Assembly (NCBI RefSeq): GCF_029910235.1
Contig: NZ_CP112874.1
Coordinates: 2,604,001 to 2,668,000 of the forward strand
From: Pseudanabaena galeata CCNP1313
Lineage (GTDB): Bacteria; Cyanobacteriota; Cyanobacteriia; Pseudanabaenales; Pseudanabaenaceae
DNA length: 64,000 bases
Reading direction: 5' to 3'
Made by a program: the position numbers and the translations under genes. Numbering within the stretch: the stretch's first letter is position 1; each line of letters opens with the position of its first letter. Positions 1 to 22,466 of the stretch are shown here, piece by piece. The notes under the pieces were generated by a model. It had not been told where the DNA came from, made no database searches, and saw only the letters and a list, made by a program, of their open reading frames with translations.

Positions 1-1397
1 GAAAAGATGACTGTGAGAACAGGAGATCCCCCTAAATCCCCCTTGTAAAGGGGGACTTGAAAACTCCTCTCTTCTCCCCCCTTCGATAAGGCGGGCTGGG
101 GGGGATCGTTACCATCATCAACAGAAGATCCCCCTAAATCCCCCTTGTGAAGGGGGACTTGAAGACTCCTCTCTTCTCCCCCCTTCGATAAGGCGGGCTG
201 GGGGGGATCGTTACCATCATCAACAGAAGATCCCCCTAAATCCCCCTTGTAAAGGGGGACTTGAAGACTCCTCTCTTCTCCCCCCTTCGATAAGGGGGGC
301 TGGGGGGGATCGTTACCATCATCAACAGAAGATCCCCCTAAATCCCCCTTGTGAAGGGGGACTTGAAAACTCCTCTCTTCTCCCCCCTTCGATAAGGGGG
401 GCTGGGGGGGATCGTTACCATCATCAACAGAAGATCCCCCTAAATCCCCCTTGTGAAGGGGGACTTGAAGAGTAAGCGCCCGATATCTCCCCACAATTAC
501 ATCCACATCCGTCGTCGCAGGAAAAGCCAAATCACGGGCGCTCATATCCTCCGTATCCGACTTTTTCGACACCTTCGCATCCGAACAAACCGCAATACTC
601 TGCAACCTCACCGTTGCCTCCGCCGACCATTCCCGCAAAGTCTGCGACATTAACGAGATCGAAGGCACTAAAAATAAAACCGTGGCGCTACCTTGCTCAA
701 TGGCAAACCTCTCCGCAATCTGCAAAGCCGTATAAGTCTTACCCGTCCCGCAAGCCATGATCAACTTACCGCGATCGCCTGTCTTAAAACCAGCCATCAC
801 CTTATCCAAAGCCATACTCTGATGCGGTCTAATCGACTTCTTCGGCTTTAATGGTAAAACGGGCGCGGGGCGCGTCTCAAAATCATCATCATTATTAATA
901 CTTGTCGAAACACTCTGCACCGCATAGCGCAAATTTTGCGAACTCACCTGACTCCAATCCACTGGACTTTGATCGAGATCATGTAAAGTCAGGCGATCGA
1001 CAGGAATATGCTGGTTTTTCAGCGCGTCCTCCGCATTCTTACCCCAACCGCAAGTTGTCACAATCAACCGATGTGTAAATGGCGCTTTGCCCGAAGCCGT
1101 AAAAAATGAATCAATATCCCCCTTATCCAATAAATGATCGGGTTGATAGCACTTACACTGAATCGCCCAATATTCACCTGTAGCCCGTTCCTGAGCAACT
1201 AAATCAATCCCTAGATCCCCTTTGCCCTCACGTTGCGGAAAATCCATCCACAGCCACACCCGCTTAAACAGTTCGGCATATTGCGGATCAGTTCGCAAAT
1301 AAGCCAATGTCAAATACTCAAACTTGTCACCTAAATCACGGGTTGAGGTTGCTTCTTGGCGAAATTGCTCAAGAACGTTGTGAATGGTGACAGTCAT
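1..1397 (-). CDS. Nuclease-helicase resembling type ISP restriction enzymes, N-terminal part
   Basis: The frame begins at an ATG at 1397 and stays open to the window edge, so the C-terminal part is not visible. Residues about 20-110 look like an Mrr-type PD-(D/E)xK nuclease (GDLGIDLVA near 60, then QCKCY near 80-84). A superfamily 2 motor follows: RPHQ at 190, Walker A ACGTGKT at 215-221, then FLVPSISLMSQT. After DLAFPATTD (about 293) the frame runs through four tandem 34-residue repeats (see 25-470) and leaves them as PVLTVIF, which is how the next conserved helicase block (TVIFSTYQS in relatives) begins. A nuclease followed by an ATPase of this type is known from LlaGI/LlaBIII-like type ISP enzymes, where a methyltransferase follows; that part would lie outside. 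It could instead be a stand-alone Mrr-helicase. The role, cutting foreign DNA, is an inference. Confidence 0.65.
   Translation of the reverse strand, partial: MTVTIHNVLEQFRQEATSTRDLGDKFEYLTLAYLRTDPQYAELFKRVWLWMDFPQREGKGDLGIDLVAQERATGEYWAIQCKCYQPDHLLDKGDIDSFFTASGKAPFTHRLIVTTCGWGKNAEDALKNQHIPVDRLTLHDLDQSPVDWSQVSSQNLRYAVQSVSTSINNDDDFETRPAPVLPLKPKKSIRPHQSMALDKVMAGFKTGDRGKLIMACGTGKTYTALQIAERFAIEQGSATVLFLVPSISLMSQTLREWSAEATVRLQSIAVCSDAKVSKKSDTEDMSARDLAFPATTDVDVIVGRYRALTLQVPLHKGDLGGSSVDDGNDPPQPPLSKGGEERSFQVPLHKGDLGGSSVDDGNDPPQPPLSKGGEERSLQVPLYKGDLGGSSVDDGNDPPQPALSKGGEERSLQVPLHKGDLGGSSVDDGNDPPQPALSKGGEERSFQVPLYKGDLGGSPVLTVIF
25..470 (-). repeat. 102-bp tandem repeat, 4.4 copies, in frame inside the helicase gene
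   Basis: The word GATCCCCCTAAATCCCCCTT recurs at 25, 127, 229, 331 and 433, an exact period of 102 bp with only a few substitutions. Each unit holds two GC-rich inverted repeats (CCCCCTT/AAGGGGG and CCCCCCTT/GGGGGG types). 102 is a multiple of three and none of the copies has a stop in the minus-strand frame, so each unit reads as 34 residues (start VQLSREEGGK, end GGLDGKHLP). Confidence 0.95.
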
Positions 1398-2772: not shown

Positions 2773-3171
2773 TTACATCAAATAATTTTCTAGCTCAGGA
2801 TATTTAGAAAATAAGCTGTCAACACTGGCAAGTTTTGCGCCATATTCTAATGCGGTAGCGATAATAAGGCGATCAAAAGGATCTTTGTGAATGGGGGATA
2901 GATTTACGGCTCTGACCGTAATTTCTGGAGTTAGTGGAAACAACTCAATTCCTGATGGAAGTAGAGCTTCTTCAAGCCATTCTGATATTGGACATGGCAA
3001 TTCTAGTCTTCCTTTTTGAGATGCGAGCGCAATTTCATAACAAGATATTGCAGATACGCCAACTTGAGGTGCAGTTTCGATCGCTGTTTGCCAAGAATCA
3101 GGAATTTTCTGAAAATCTTCTGTCATCAGCCAAAACCAAATATGAGTATCTAGCACAGTTATTTCAGACAT
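2773..3171 (-). CDS. vapC: PIN-domain toxin, VapC type (copy 1)
   Basis: This is a PIN-domain RNase of about 132 residues. The first acidic residue lies in VLDTHIWFW, a central Glu in SCYEIALA, and the C-terminal Asp residues in DPFDRLIIATAL and ASVDSLF. VapC toxins cleave RNA (usually initiator tRNA or rRNA) when their antitoxin is lost. The start MSEITVLD at 3171 is preferred over the upstream 3177, because it gives a 13-bp overlap with the antitoxin gene, the same as in copy 2. The last 38 residues are identical to copy 2, so the pair is a tandem duplication. The target is unknown. Confidence 0.9.
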   Translation of the reverse strand: MSEITVLDTHIWFWLMTEDFQKIPDSWQTAIETAPQVGVSAISCYEIALASQKGRLELPCPISEWLEEALLPSGIELFPLTPEITVRAVNLSPIHKDPFDRLIIATALEYGAKLASVDSLFSKYPELENYLM

Positions 3172-3383
3172 TCCCAATCCTCTTCATCGACAATAGGGCT
3201 AACAATATCGCCTAATGTTCTGCCTTTACCTGCGATCGCTTTTGATGGAGAGCGTCTTTTAATTTGGGTGACTTTATTTTCTTCGGCAATTACGATAATG
3301 GCGCGAGTTGTCTGGAAATTTGGTTTTTCGCCTAGCCATGTAATGCGATCGCCTTCAATGGCAACTTCATAACTTTTGAGCAT
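3159..3383 (-). CDS. Antitoxin partner of VapC (copy 1)
   Basis: This 74-residue protein lies directly upstream of the PIN toxin and overlaps it by 13 bp. The N-terminus (MLKSYEVAIEGDRITWL) forms a beta-strand-rich DNA-binding type start common in small cyanobacterial antitoxins. The acidic tail (VDEEDWECLK) is typical of the toxin-wrapping part. The tail is almost identical to that of the second antitoxin. Neutralising the adjacent toxin and repressing its own operon are inferences from gene order. Confidence 0.8.
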   Translation of the reverse strand: MLKSYEVAIEGDRITWLGEKPNFQTTRAIIVIAEENKVTQIKRRSPSKAIAGKGRTLGDIVSPIVDEEDWECLK

Positions 3384-3476: not shown

Positions 3477-3872
3477 TTACATGAGATAATTTTCTAATTC
3501 AGGATATTTAGAGAATAAACTGTCAACACTGGCAAGTTTTGCACCATATTCTAACGCAGTGGCGATGATTAAGCGATCGAAGGGATCTTTGTGAATGGGC
3601 ATTAGGTTTACGGCTCTGGTGGTAATTTCTGGAGTCAATGGCAATAGTTCGATTTTGGCAGGTGCTAATGCTCTGCTAAACCATTCTCTAGAAGAACAGG
3701 TTAGCTCTAATCTGCCTCGACTTTGGGCTAAGGCAATTTCATAGCAAGATAGAGGAGATACTGCTAATATCTCGGCTTCAAAGCGTTCAAGCCAAGATGA
3801 GGGAAACTGATCGAAGTTTGAGTTGATTAGCCATAACCAAATATGGGTGTCGAGAACGATTATTTCAGACAT
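3477..3872 (-). CDS. vapC: PIN-domain toxin, VapC type (copy 2)
   Basis: This is a 131-residue PIN-domain RNase, a close paralogue of the protein at 2773-3171. VLDTHIWLW, SCYEIALA and DPFDRLII supply the acidic site. The C-terminal half is nearly identical to copy 1, while the central region (residues about 25-75) differs clearly, which suggests separate pairing specificity. It overlaps its antitoxin gene by 13 bp. Confidence 0.9.
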   Translation of the reverse strand: MSEIIVLDTHIWLWLINSNFDQFPSSWLERFEAEILAVSPLSCYEIALAQSRGRLELTCSSREWFSRALAPAKIELLPLTPEITTRAVNLMPIHKDPFDRLIIATALEYGAKLASVDSLFSKYPELENYLM

Positions 3873-4081
3873 TCCCAGTCCTCTTCATCGACAATAGGAT
3901 TCACGATATCACCTAATATTTTCACTTTGCCAGCCATATCAGGTATAGGAAAACGTCTTTTTATTTGGGGTTTAGTTTCTTCTAGGATGGTTACAATAAT
4001 TCGGGCTGATGTGATTTCTGGTTGTTCGGACAGCCATTTAATTTGTCCGTTCTCGTAGGTTGCTTCATAACTTTTAAGCAT
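3860..4081 (-). CDS. Antitoxin partner of VapC (copy 2)
   Basis: This 73-residue protein is homologous to the antitoxin at 3159-3383: same MLKSYE start and the same GDIV-PIVDEEDWECLK end, with a divergent middle. It is the first gene of the second toxin-antitoxin pair and follows the large helicase gene in the same direction after 28 bp, so read-through from that gene is possible. Confidence 0.8.
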   Translation of the reverse strand: MLKSYEATYENGQIKWLSEQPEITSARIIVTILEETKPQIKRRFPIPDMAGKVKILGDIVNPIVDEEDWECLK

Positions 4082-20312: not shown

Positions 20313-20807
<495 letters not shown>

Positions 20808-20812
20808 TTTTT

Positions 20813-20878
20813 AGCTTTTAGCGATTAGCTTTTAGCGATTAGCTTTTAGCGATTAGCTTTTAGCGATTAGCTTTTAGC
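20813..20878. repeat. 14-bp tandem repeat, 4.7 copies
   Basis: AGCTTTTAGCGATT is repeated without change at 20813, 20827, 20841 and 20855, with a partial unit at 20869. TTTTAGC within it is the complement of the GCTAAAA heptamer found at 22384-22466. Confidence 0.95.
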
Positions 20879-20896
20879 TGAAATAATTAATTATGT

Positions 20897-21033: not shown

Positions 21034-22299
21034 ATGGATAAACGCTTTTATAGTTTTTTTAATTTGACAGAAGATCAGGCGATCGCCATTTTAGATACGC
21101 CTCAAGATCAAATAGGTGAAGATGATTCGAGGTATATCGCTGCTTCACATTTAGTTAATTTTAATTCTGAAAGATCGATTGACGCTTTAATTAGAGCAAT
21201 TCAAAAAAACGATCCTGAAATGGAAAATCGGATTGTGCGGCGGAAGGCTGTGGAAACTCTAGGAAGGCTTCAAGCAACCGTAGCTTTGCCCGTCATTCGG
21301 GAATGCCTATCCGATCCAGATTGCTACATGGTAGAGAATGCAGTTTGGGCGATCGGTGAAATTGGTACGGAAGATCCTGAGATTCTGCAAGAAATTACGC
21401 AATTACTGGATAGAGAAGCACAAACCTATCGCGTGATCATCCAGACTTTAGCGAAGTTAGATTACAAACCTGCGATCGCCAAGATTAAACCATTCACCAC
21501 CGATGAGAGTCTGCCCATTTCCAGTGCTGCAATTACGGCTCTCTGTCGGTTAAATCGAGATTTTTCGCAAATGGATCAGATTGTGGCGCTGTTGCAAAAT
21601 CGCAACGTGATCGCTCGACGCTTATCGATTCAAGATTTAATTGATGCTAATTATTACGCGGCAATTCCCGATATTTCCCATTGCCCTGTATCTCTAGTAT
21701 TCCGACTGCGTGGCATTCGCATGTTAGGAGAAGCAGGAATCCAAGAAGGAGCGATCGCTTTTGCTGACATTCAACCCTATCTCGAAAAATCTTTAATCGA
21801 TCACCCCAATTCACTATGCCTTGTGCATCGTTACGATACTTTGCCAGATTTATCTTTTTTAATTCATGAATTATACGAAACTGATTTTGGGCGGTGCTAC
21901 ACAGCAATTAAGACAATTTTAGAGAGCTATGCCGAAACTGCTCCAGAAGCCCTTTTTAATACTTACGAGCAAGAAGCAAAAAATGACTATGGGGCTCATT
22001 TCCACGTCATGAAGCTTTTTGGTTGGCTAAAACATGCTCCTGCCTACGATCTATTAATTGAAGCTCTACACAATAAGCAACCCCAATTCCAAAAATCCCG
22101 TGCCGCCGCCGCGATCGCCCTAGCTGAAATTGGTGACCCAAGAGCCATCTCCGAAATCAAATCTTGTCTCACCGCCCAAATCTGGGATCTCAAATATGCC
22201 TCTCTACTAGCCTTAGAGAAACTTGGCGATCGCAGTGGCTACGAAGTACTTGCCAACGATAGCGATTTACTAATTCGTGAGAAAGCTAATAGCTATTAG
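21034..22299 (+). CDS. cpeY: Phycoerythrobilin lyase subunit CpeY
   Basis: This is a 421-residue HEAT-repeat protein of the E/F lyase clan; start MDKRFYSFFNLTEDQAI and repeated LGRLQATVALPVIRECL-type helices are typical. CpeY attaches phycoerythrobilin to Cys82 of CpeA in well-studied strains, helped by CpeZ. Its place after cpeBA and before cpeZ supports the assignment. The last residues (ANSY) and stop are encoded by the heptamer repeat at 22285-22319, so the C-terminus is probably variable between strains. No clear Shine-Dalgarno sequence is seen. Confidence 0.93.
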   Translation: MDKRFYSFFNLTEDQAIAILDTPQDQIGEDDSRYIAASHLVNFNSERSIDALIRAIQKNDPEMENRIVRRKAVETLGRLQATVALPVIRECLSDPDCYMVENAVWAIGEIGTEDPEILQEITQLLDREAQTYRVIIQTLAKLDYKPAIAKIKPFTTDESLPISSAAITALCRLNRDFSQMDQIVALLQNRNVIARRLSIQDLIDANYYAAIPDISHCPVSLVFRLRGIRMLGEAGIQEGAIAFADIQPYLEKSLIDHPNSLCLVHRYDTLPDLSFLIHELYETDFGRCYTAIKTILESYAETAPEALFNTYEQEAKNDYGAHFHVMKLFGWLKHAPAYDLLIEALHNKQPQFQKSRAAAAIALAEIGDPRAISEIKSCLTAQIWDLKYASLLALEKLGDRSGYEVLANDSDLLIREKANSY

Positions 22300-22319
22300 C
22301 TGTTAGCTGTTAGCTGTTT
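22285..22319. repeat. Heptanucleotide repeat (GCTRTTA), five units, overlapping the cpeY end
   Basis: GCTAATA, GCTATTA, GCTGTTA, GCTGTTA and GCTGTTT at 7-bp spacing cover the last four cpeY codons, its TAG stop and 20 bp beyond. Confidence 0.85.
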
Positions 22320-22383
22320 AGATTAGTCAATAAAGGTTGTAGGCAAAAGATGAGAAAGTGAAACTTTTTCAATGTTCATAAAA

Positions 22384-22466
22384 GCCAAAAGCCAAAAGCT
22401 AAAAGCTAAAAGCTAAAAGCTAAAAGCCAAAAGCTAAAAGCCAAAAGCCAAAAGCTAAAAGCTAAA
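22384..22466. repeat. Heptanucleotide repeat (GCYAAAA), twelve units
   Basis: Twelve units of GCYAAAA follow each other without spacing change, ending 24 bp before cpeZ. C and T alternate irregularly at the third base. It occupies the space where the cpeZ ribosome binding site region begins. Confidence 0.95.

Follow-up and report, generated by a model that had tools for sequence, protein, structure and literature searches.

Small palindromic DNA elements appear to have landed repeatedly in two permissive loops of Type ISP restriction-modification enzymes. In one cyanobacterial gene, the palindrome would then have been duplicated in tandem and in frame, leaving an enzyme that is functional or nearly so. 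We give this explanation a probability of about 75%. The gene lies at the left edge of a 64,000-nucleotide stretch of Pseudanabaena galeata CCNP1313 (hereafter the window, G000:C1:2604001-2668000), which its psbA genes mark as cyanobacterial and which belongs to contig C1 (4.93 Mb) of a 5.84 Mb genome in six contigs. Throughout, G000 stands for this genome, other G numbers for other genomes and L numbers for fetched loci. Since different hairpin repeats are found in the same two loops of related enzymes, both loops look like places where small mobile DNA has landed time and again.

An in-frame tandem array in a Type ISP gene

Tandem Repeats Finder reported eight rows in the window, the strongest of which spans 18-471 with a period of 102, 4.5 copies and 97% matches (score 859, compared to 141 for the next-best row). 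When set in register, the array consists of 4.4 units at 25-472. Each 102-bp unit is composed of an 83-bp imperfect palindrome, whose GATCCCCC arms form inverted repeats, and a 19-bp spacer. Any two of the four full units differ at exactly 2 of their 102 bases, and only three positions vary in all. The coding minus frame is open across all copies, as is one plus frame, while the other four of the six frames are closed. A reading of the letters without database searches (the sequence-only reading) had placed the units at 25, 127, 229, 331 and 433, in agreement with both Tandem Repeats Finder and the register comparison, and had also recognized that every copy is open in the minus frame. It had drawn the repeat as 1-470 with about 148 residues: the array is real, but it starts at 25 rather than 1 and the insert amounts to about 150 residues.

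The open reading frame (ORF) that hosts the array extends beyond the window to C1:2599947 and is 1,845 codons long when counted from the first TTG, or 1,816 when counted from the ATG. Its Pfam domains are Mrr_cat_2, ResIII, Helicase_C, ISP_coupler, Eco57I and Type_ISP_C, and PF13156, PF04851/PF00271, PF22240, PF07669/PF02384 and PF18135 each pass the cut-off. A single polypeptide therefore joins an Mrr nuclease, a superfamily 2 (SF2) ATPase, a coupler, an N6-adenine methyltransferase and a target-recognition domain, which is the make-up of a Type ISP enzyme. The catalytic motifs of motor and methyltransferase (GTGKT, DEAH, TATP, QSVGRVMR, FTGTGTF and NPPY) are intact in the ORF and its alignment. 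The closest solved relatives by sequence are LlaBIII (4xqk, the best match) and LlaGI (5ffj), and LlaBIII is also the best fold match for a modelled homologue. The Pfam set and these matches bear out the earlier assignment to the LlaGI/LlaBIII type. Extension to the left, which had been proposed as a check, revealed a complete nuclease-helicase-methyltransferase ORF with no stop or frameshift just left of position 1. As had also been supposed, PVLTVIF leads into the next helicase block, with STYQS, the DEAH box and TATP following, and the array has multiplied without breaking the gene.

The array occupies a loop of the SF2 motor, here called site 1, that is bounded by the PATT block on one side and, on the other, by the STYQS strand leading into the DEAH box; the loop lies about 30 residues ahead of that box. 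When aligned with two orthologues of the genus (89% and 87% identical), the protein loses the alignment after RY(R/Q)AL and regains it at P-LTVIFSTYQS. Residues 294-307 of LlaBIII correspond to 332-489 here, as the gap between phmmer pieces. A second loop with inserts (site 2) lies in the methyltransferase between motifs I and IV.

Arrays of this kind keep a three-base periodicity. All 15 spacings measured in the coding arrays of Type ISP, OplAH, PglX, WD40 and CobN genes are multiples of three, and the units are 102, 99/96, 99, 114 and 132 bp long, rather than of the lengths indivisible by three that would characterize a phase-variable gene. Units can thus be gained or lost without a frameshift, which rules out phase variation by frameshift. 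As examples from intergenic DNA, three sets of neighbouring copies in G000 lie 131, 152 and 224 bp apart. Copy number differs between genomes: BREX-1 PglX carries three in-frame 99-bp units in G023 (L255) and two in G025 (L256), where the upstream DNA is 98.2% identical; in the WD40 gene, G005 and G017 have two units where G019 and G020 have a single one; and at a second site in CobN, G012 has two units and G014 one. The PglX genes of L255 and L256 also bear a second repeat site.

Among the Type ISP genes of G000, G022 and G001, the ratio of non-synonymous to synonymous substitution rates (dN/dS) is 0.087-0.127 ahead of site 1, 0.053-0.065 from site 1 to site 2 and 0.136-0.199 beyond site 2 (0.127, 0.065 and 0.188 for G000 and G001). 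In-frame spacings together with flanking dN/dS values of 0.05-0.20 indicate that the gene has been kept under purifying selection. Neither result supports the proposal of the sequence-only reading that the enzyme could be tuned or turned off through its number of copies. Within the units, variable codons are mostly non-synonymous (3 of 3 in the Type ISP array and 8 of 9 in the OplAH array), which suggests that the frame is preserved and the peptide hardly so.

Different occupants in the same two loops

We surveyed the length of the two loops in 83 sequences, namely 80 named homologues plus G000, G001 and G022. The PATT...STYQS pattern fitted 22 of the 83, leaving 61 unmatched. In 17 of these 22 the distance is 21-24 residues; one homologue has 29, L104 (a Thiotrichaceae bin) 34, and the three members of the genus 54 (G022), 55 (G001) and 169 (G000). 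Site 2 is 17-27 residues long in 71 of the 76 sequences measured and 66-91 in the remaining five, two of which (Okeania and a Kapaibacterium bin) are outside the genus. A class-wide sample of 388 genomes returned 10 further loci read at these sites. At site 1, L182, L183, L185 and L190 have an insert, and L184, L189 and L195 have none; at site 2, L190 and L196 have one, and L181, L182, L183, L184 and L185 lack it; in L191 neither site is visible. In an AlphaFold model of L173, residues 296-311 of its own site-1 insert have a predicted local distance difference test score (pLDDT) below 50 and lie between helix 279-290 and strand 314-320, while site 2 falls between helix 956-974 and strand 984-986. 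The confidence of this model is modest (mean pLDDT 73.4, predicted template modelling score 0.56) and it was used for loop placement alone.

The occupants differ between relatives. At site 1, G022 and G001 carry a palindrome other than that of G000 (element A), which we call family B, with the peptide CPHPPAPSPRTGEG...GEGFRVRAEP. Family B has 69 matches in G000, 31 in G001 and 48 in G022, counting both strands and partial pieces. None of the listed G000 matches lies at the array, so family B is present in G000 but not at site 1. At site 2 the occupants of G000, G022 and G001 are all different. When 19 hairpin or repeat inserts were compared all against all (E 1e-3), three sequence groups emerged at site 1 (G000 with L173; G001 with G022 and L104; L182 with L183 and L190) and five at site 2 (G022 with L190; G001; G000; L107 with L196; L120), which narrowed our initial notion of wholly unrelated occupants to these eight groups. 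Occupied loops are found in several phyla, and the L104 repeat has further places within its own 19-kb locus.

To count hairpin-type inserts along the whole protein, we scanned an alignment of 90 proteins for inserts that exceed the median by 10 residues or more and derived DNA folding z-scores from 60 base shuffles. Types were required to reach z <= -4, and identical or orthologous inserts were counted once. The site-2 insert of Okeania (z -2.5) was excluded, and the L173 insert (z -3.5) was counted through its identical twin in L185 (z -4.4). Overall, 15 types were identified, 5 at site 1, 6 at site 2 and 4 elsewhere. The alignment of 79 proteins has 38 loops with at least three lengths, or 37 once two adjacent site-1 segments are merged, and the probability of finding 11 of 15 types in any two of 37 loops is < 9e-9. 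The first 79 proteins alone place 8 of 12 types in two loops (< 2e-5). Both bounds assume independent insertions and equal loops, and 11 of the 90 sequences joined after the first look, some because split matches hinted at inserts. With these caveats, the loop count rules out an even spread of insertions along the protein.

On a tree of the core columns, empty homologues sit between filled ones, and parsimony returns five occupied/empty changes per site, some partial sequences being scored as empty. The same tree joins G000 with G022, in which case A would have replaced B at site 1, an order that we favour and do not regard as proven. No close empty sister allele was found among the relatives to reveal a target-site duplication, as would be sought for a miniature inverted-repeat transposable element.

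Two further inserts deserve mention. The site-2 palindrome of G356 has just two matches in its own genome, one of which is the insert itself, as if the Type ISP gene of G356 had arrived already carrying it. Two congeners have 43 and 15 matches, and the closest relative of this palindrome elsewhere occupies site 1 in G365. The insert in L169, a Bacteroidetes Type ISP homologue, is not palindromic; it adds about 115-122 residues, with a further 28, at reference position ~329-334.

The element in the genus and the surroundings of the gene

Element A has 73 matches in G000, again with both strands and partial pieces counted. It forms hairpins and is dispersed in many copies, and 39 of the 40 dispersed copies examined lie outside long ORFs, the exception being in CobN. 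This fits the palindromic, intergenic-looking origin that the sequence-only reading had ascribed to the repeat. As in Rickettsia palindromic elements (RPEs), copies are found in frame within conserved genes (Type ISP, OplAH and others), and they are absent from the Type ISP and OplAH homologues outside the genus. No GTAG/CGTC tag was seen by eye; several dispersed copies read CTAAGAGATCCCCC...GGGGGATCTAGAC, and the ends of the element are provisional.

A second array in G000 consists of seven in-frame copies spaced by 99 or 96 bp between the HyuA and HyuB parts of an OplAH-type protein. The corresponding linker was readable in 20 of 24 other loci of the genus, with copies or remnants recognized by eye in 18 and none in L092 and L093, and is free of repeats in the two loci from outside the genus (L096 and L097). 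The unit of the window is 92, 89, 87, 87, 87 and 83% identical to the six full OplAH units, and at most 84% identical to full-length dispersed copies. Dispersed copies with the exact arm motif carry GATTGAGG, which contains an in-frame TGA, with one exception, while the Type ISP and OplAH copies carry the stop-free GATTTAGG. In G000, 4 of 5 stop-free copies lie in genes (Type ISP, OplAH, the L312 protein and the second site in CobN), compared to 1 of 39 copies with the TGA (P-value 2e-4, Fisher test), the two forms having been gathered by different searches.

A pattern search throughout the genus identified 67 distinct stop-free sites, read in loci L270-L334. Of these, 35 are in long ORFs, 27 outside and 5 ambiguous at contig or locus edges, which rules out that the stop-free element is confined to genes. 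All 35 copies in long ORFs use one common frame. The hosts include DNA-modification enzymes (BREX-1 PglX, BREX-2 PglX, a Type I HsdM-S fusion, a DUF1156 methylase, an MmeI/Eco57I-like enzyme and Type ISP) as well as CobN, OplAH, a pseudouridine synthase, a TPR-CHAT protein, a protein without Pfam match and a WD40 protein that has a P-loop and is STAND-type by eye. DNA-modification enzymes thus account for 6 of 12 named host families, or 7 of 13 with the L322 host, a methylase fragment recognized by eye alone; these are raw counts, uncorrected for gene length or background. Plasmid searches with the element peptide and with a stretch of G000 contig C3 returned no match.

Coordinates of the array, its host gene and the second array of G000 (window positions unless stated otherwise)
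Feature	Position	Strand	Evidence
N-terminal part of the Type ISP gene (ATG 1397-1395; continues left to G000:C1:2599947)	1-1397	-	ORF, Pfam, LlaBIII/LlaGI match
Whole in-frame insert at site 1, ~150 residues (ORF residues 338-487)	24-473	-	Alignment with two orthologues, linker survey
Repeat unit 1 (83-bp palindromic element 25-107 plus 19-bp spacer)	25-126	-	Tandem Repeats Finder, unit comparison
Repeat unit 2	127-228	-	Tandem Repeats Finder, unit comparison
Repeat unit 3 (long-hairpin fold of element 229-311)	229-330	-	Tandem Repeats Finder, unit comparison
Repeat unit 4	331-432	-	Tandem Repeats Finder, unit comparison
Partial unit 5 (40 bp)	433-472	-	Tandem Repeats Finder, unit comparison
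PATT of the conserved DLAFPATTD block, landmark before the insert	510-521	-	Sequence, alignment
Walker A GTGKT of the SF2 motor (ORF residues 246-250)	735-749	-	Sequence
Mrr-type nuclease domain PF13156 (ORF residues 64-183)	936-1295	-	Pfam, residues converted
OplAH-type (5-oxoprolinase-type) protein, 1,462 residues, seven-copy array	L010 2720-7108 = G000:C1:4809720-4814108

On the same strand after the Type ISP gene, left of the window, two genes score as PDC-M47A and PDC-M47B (L009 3945-5944). These models describe a candidate defence system, which gives the region the look of a small defence island. Two psbA copies in the same orientation, at 1620-2702 of the window and at L009 2472-3593 (identical over the 782 bp compared), flank the island of Type ISP and PDC-M47 genes, so that recombination between them could delete it. 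C-terminal remnants of Type ISP genes lie near psbA at G000:C1:2597752-2597952 and C1:3457825-3457983 (88% and 68% identity), and the truncated Type ISP gene of G023 likewise adjoins psbA. The surroundings of psbA may be recurrent homes of the Type ISP gene. Elsewhere in the window, 2773-3383 and 3477-4081 hold two similar pairs that look by eye like modules of a PIN-domain toxin and a small antitoxin, the larger proteins sharing a nearly identical C-terminal stretch. Tandem repeats of 7 bp at 20805-20879, 22290-22318 and 22379-22466 resemble the short heptamer repeats known from cyanobacteria.

Competing explanations and known systems

According to the explanation that we prefer, small palindromes would multiply in the genome, probably by transposition, and land repeatedly in sites 1 and 2. 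Insertion across most of the ~1,600-residue enzyme would be destructive and mostly purged by selection, and the two loops would tolerate it. At site 1 of G000, a stop-free 83-bp palindrome would have been duplicated in tandem with a 19-bp spacer, the survivors being units of a length divisible by three. The product, which is probably translated within an active enzyme, would be a flexible spacer rich in Gly, Pro and Lys that persists by tolerance rather than benefit. Insertion followed by duplication would explain why the occupants differ and some relatives are empty, and would also account for the periodicity, for the constraint and for a peptide that drifts freely.

Several observations weigh against this explanation. 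Four of the 15 hairpin types are in other loops (L104 at 230, L108 at 329, and L108 and L114 at 1495). The A-like and B-like groups are each found at both sites and in more than one genus, and a 13-bp stretch matches between A and B (E 0.002), which indicates that the occupants are of several kinds and not all strangers to one another. Some site-2 inserts showed few or no further copies: that of G000 has three other partial matches in its genome, that of G356 (L190, G356:C22) has one, and those of L107, L196 and L120 have no second copy in their own fetched loci. In IQ-TREE analyses, the N-terminal part of the protein backs the nesting from B to A at 68-82, and the central part another order at 63. 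The high share of DNA-modification hosts is left unexplained; it may result from large multi-domain proteins that travel between genomes, or from something more specific. Finally, among six genomes of the genus whose Type ISP gene extends into the N-terminal half, it is uninterrupted in G000 and G001 alone. The gene has an interruption of about 1 kb downstream of site 2 in G022, is cut soon after the repeat start in G003, truncated in G023 and split across contig ends in G013, and several other congeners retain just short C-terminal remnants. The gene may thus be losing importance, and the inserts cannot be dated by dN/dS.

That the enzyme is simply decaying, with repeats piling up in a gene that no longer matters, would account for these remnants and for the four of six longer orthologues that are broken, truncated or incomplete. 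We nevertheless consider it unlikely, because the G000 and G001 genes are open over their full length with the aligned motifs intact, their dN/dS is low in all three parts and the coding arrays are all in frame. It is doubtful, if slightly less so, that the inserts are adaptive linkers whose length or occupant tunes translocation, stability or target choice, with copy number as a slow dial on restriction. Their recurrence in the same two motor and methyltransferase loops, the variation from three to two copies between the closely related PglX genes of G023 and G025 and the closeness of site 1 to the DEAH box would suit such a role. Against it, the occupants vary in sequence group and in length (12-147 residues), the variable codons of the units mostly change residues, the loops are empty in many homologues and the element is also present in CobN, OplAH, pseudouridine synthase and other genes. 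We hold somewhat more open, as a tentative possibility, that a coding-adapted, stop-free cassette moves from gene to gene in one fixed frame and prefers antiphage DNA-modification enzymes, where varying numbers of tandem copies would form linkers of different length that may adjust or protect the enzyme.

A single ancient insertion per loop, diverged ever since, would parallel the common origin favoured for RPE-4/6/7 (PMC3767692). Both sites are filled in all three aligned orthologues of the genus and two sequence groups recur in different genera, as one would then expect. This history is very unlikely in view of the empty homologues between filled ones, the five changes per site (with some partial sequences scored as empty), the filled sites in different phyla and the eight groups formed by the 19 inserts without any cross-match at E 1e-3. 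Least likely of all is that assembly has inflated a true copy number of one or two. The number of copies is known from the assembly alone, and a contig of G013 ends inside its repeat, as is common in assemblies; but the three internal variants are interspersed among the copies, and comparable in-frame arrays exist in OplAH, while other genomes have them in genes for PglX, a WD40 protein and CobN.

In-frame palindromes are already known from Rickettsia and from intragenic repetitive extragenic palindromes (REPs), including in DNA-repair genes (PMC2229807, PMC3767692, PMC3733652). RPEs are described as in-frame inserts in conserved genes, often at the same place in orthologues, and are viewed as neutral or slightly costly (PMC2229807, PMC3767692). 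The element described here resembles them in that it is a short dispersed palindrome found in frame within conserved genes. It differs in the organism and, as far as we have looked, in the element itself, in forming a tandem array of 4.4 units, and in that one loop hosts several sequence groups across multiple genera and phyla. For RPE-4/6/7, the choice between a hotspot and one diverged insertion was left undecided with a leaning to the latter (PMC3767692), while the Type ISP sequences would rather favour insertion hotspots. Of the ORFs that contain REPs of the GTAG/CGTC superfamilies, many are DNA repair and replication genes and some are hit twice, and the REP clusters encode 43-82 residues (PMC3733652). 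Here, the insert has 150 residues, about half of the host families in the genus are DNA-modification enzymes, and several families share one loop, which the passages considered on intragenic REPs do not describe (PMC3733652). In the full-text literature that we searched (top results, few subscription journals), we found no account of palindromes in frame within Type ISP enzymes or in cyanobacteria of this kind, and none of multiple palindrome families in one loop.

The domain order of LlaBIII and LlaGI is identical to that of this protein (PMC4872093, PMC7049714). By residue number, neither site hits their K385 (beta-hairpin), T376 (motif III), R564 (motif V) or target-reading loops I-VI (PMC7049714, PMC4872093). 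Translocation is reported to be lost when the beta-hairpin loop is deleted, and an earlier analysis covered 552 Type ISP proteins (PMC4872093). Since several hairpin groups occupy two loops across phyla with empty relatives in between, the hotspot question raised for RPEs (PMC3767692) is now testable with the existing structures and assays of these two enzymes. The loops mark natural insertion points in a restriction motor, and in annotation, hairpin inserts of this kind can be taken for domains or for breaks in a gene. Should antiphage methyltransferases still stand out as hosts against a proper background, this would hint at how defence enzymes acquire linkers and length variants. Known tandem protein repeats derived from palindromic DNA are variable in number and spread among genomes, while here the units interrupt known enzymes. 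Compared to these systems and within the literature searched, three features appear to be new: several palindrome groups have converged on the same pair of loops in a single enzyme family in different phyla, a motor domain contains a long tandem array, and many genes of one genus carry the element in a stop-free version.
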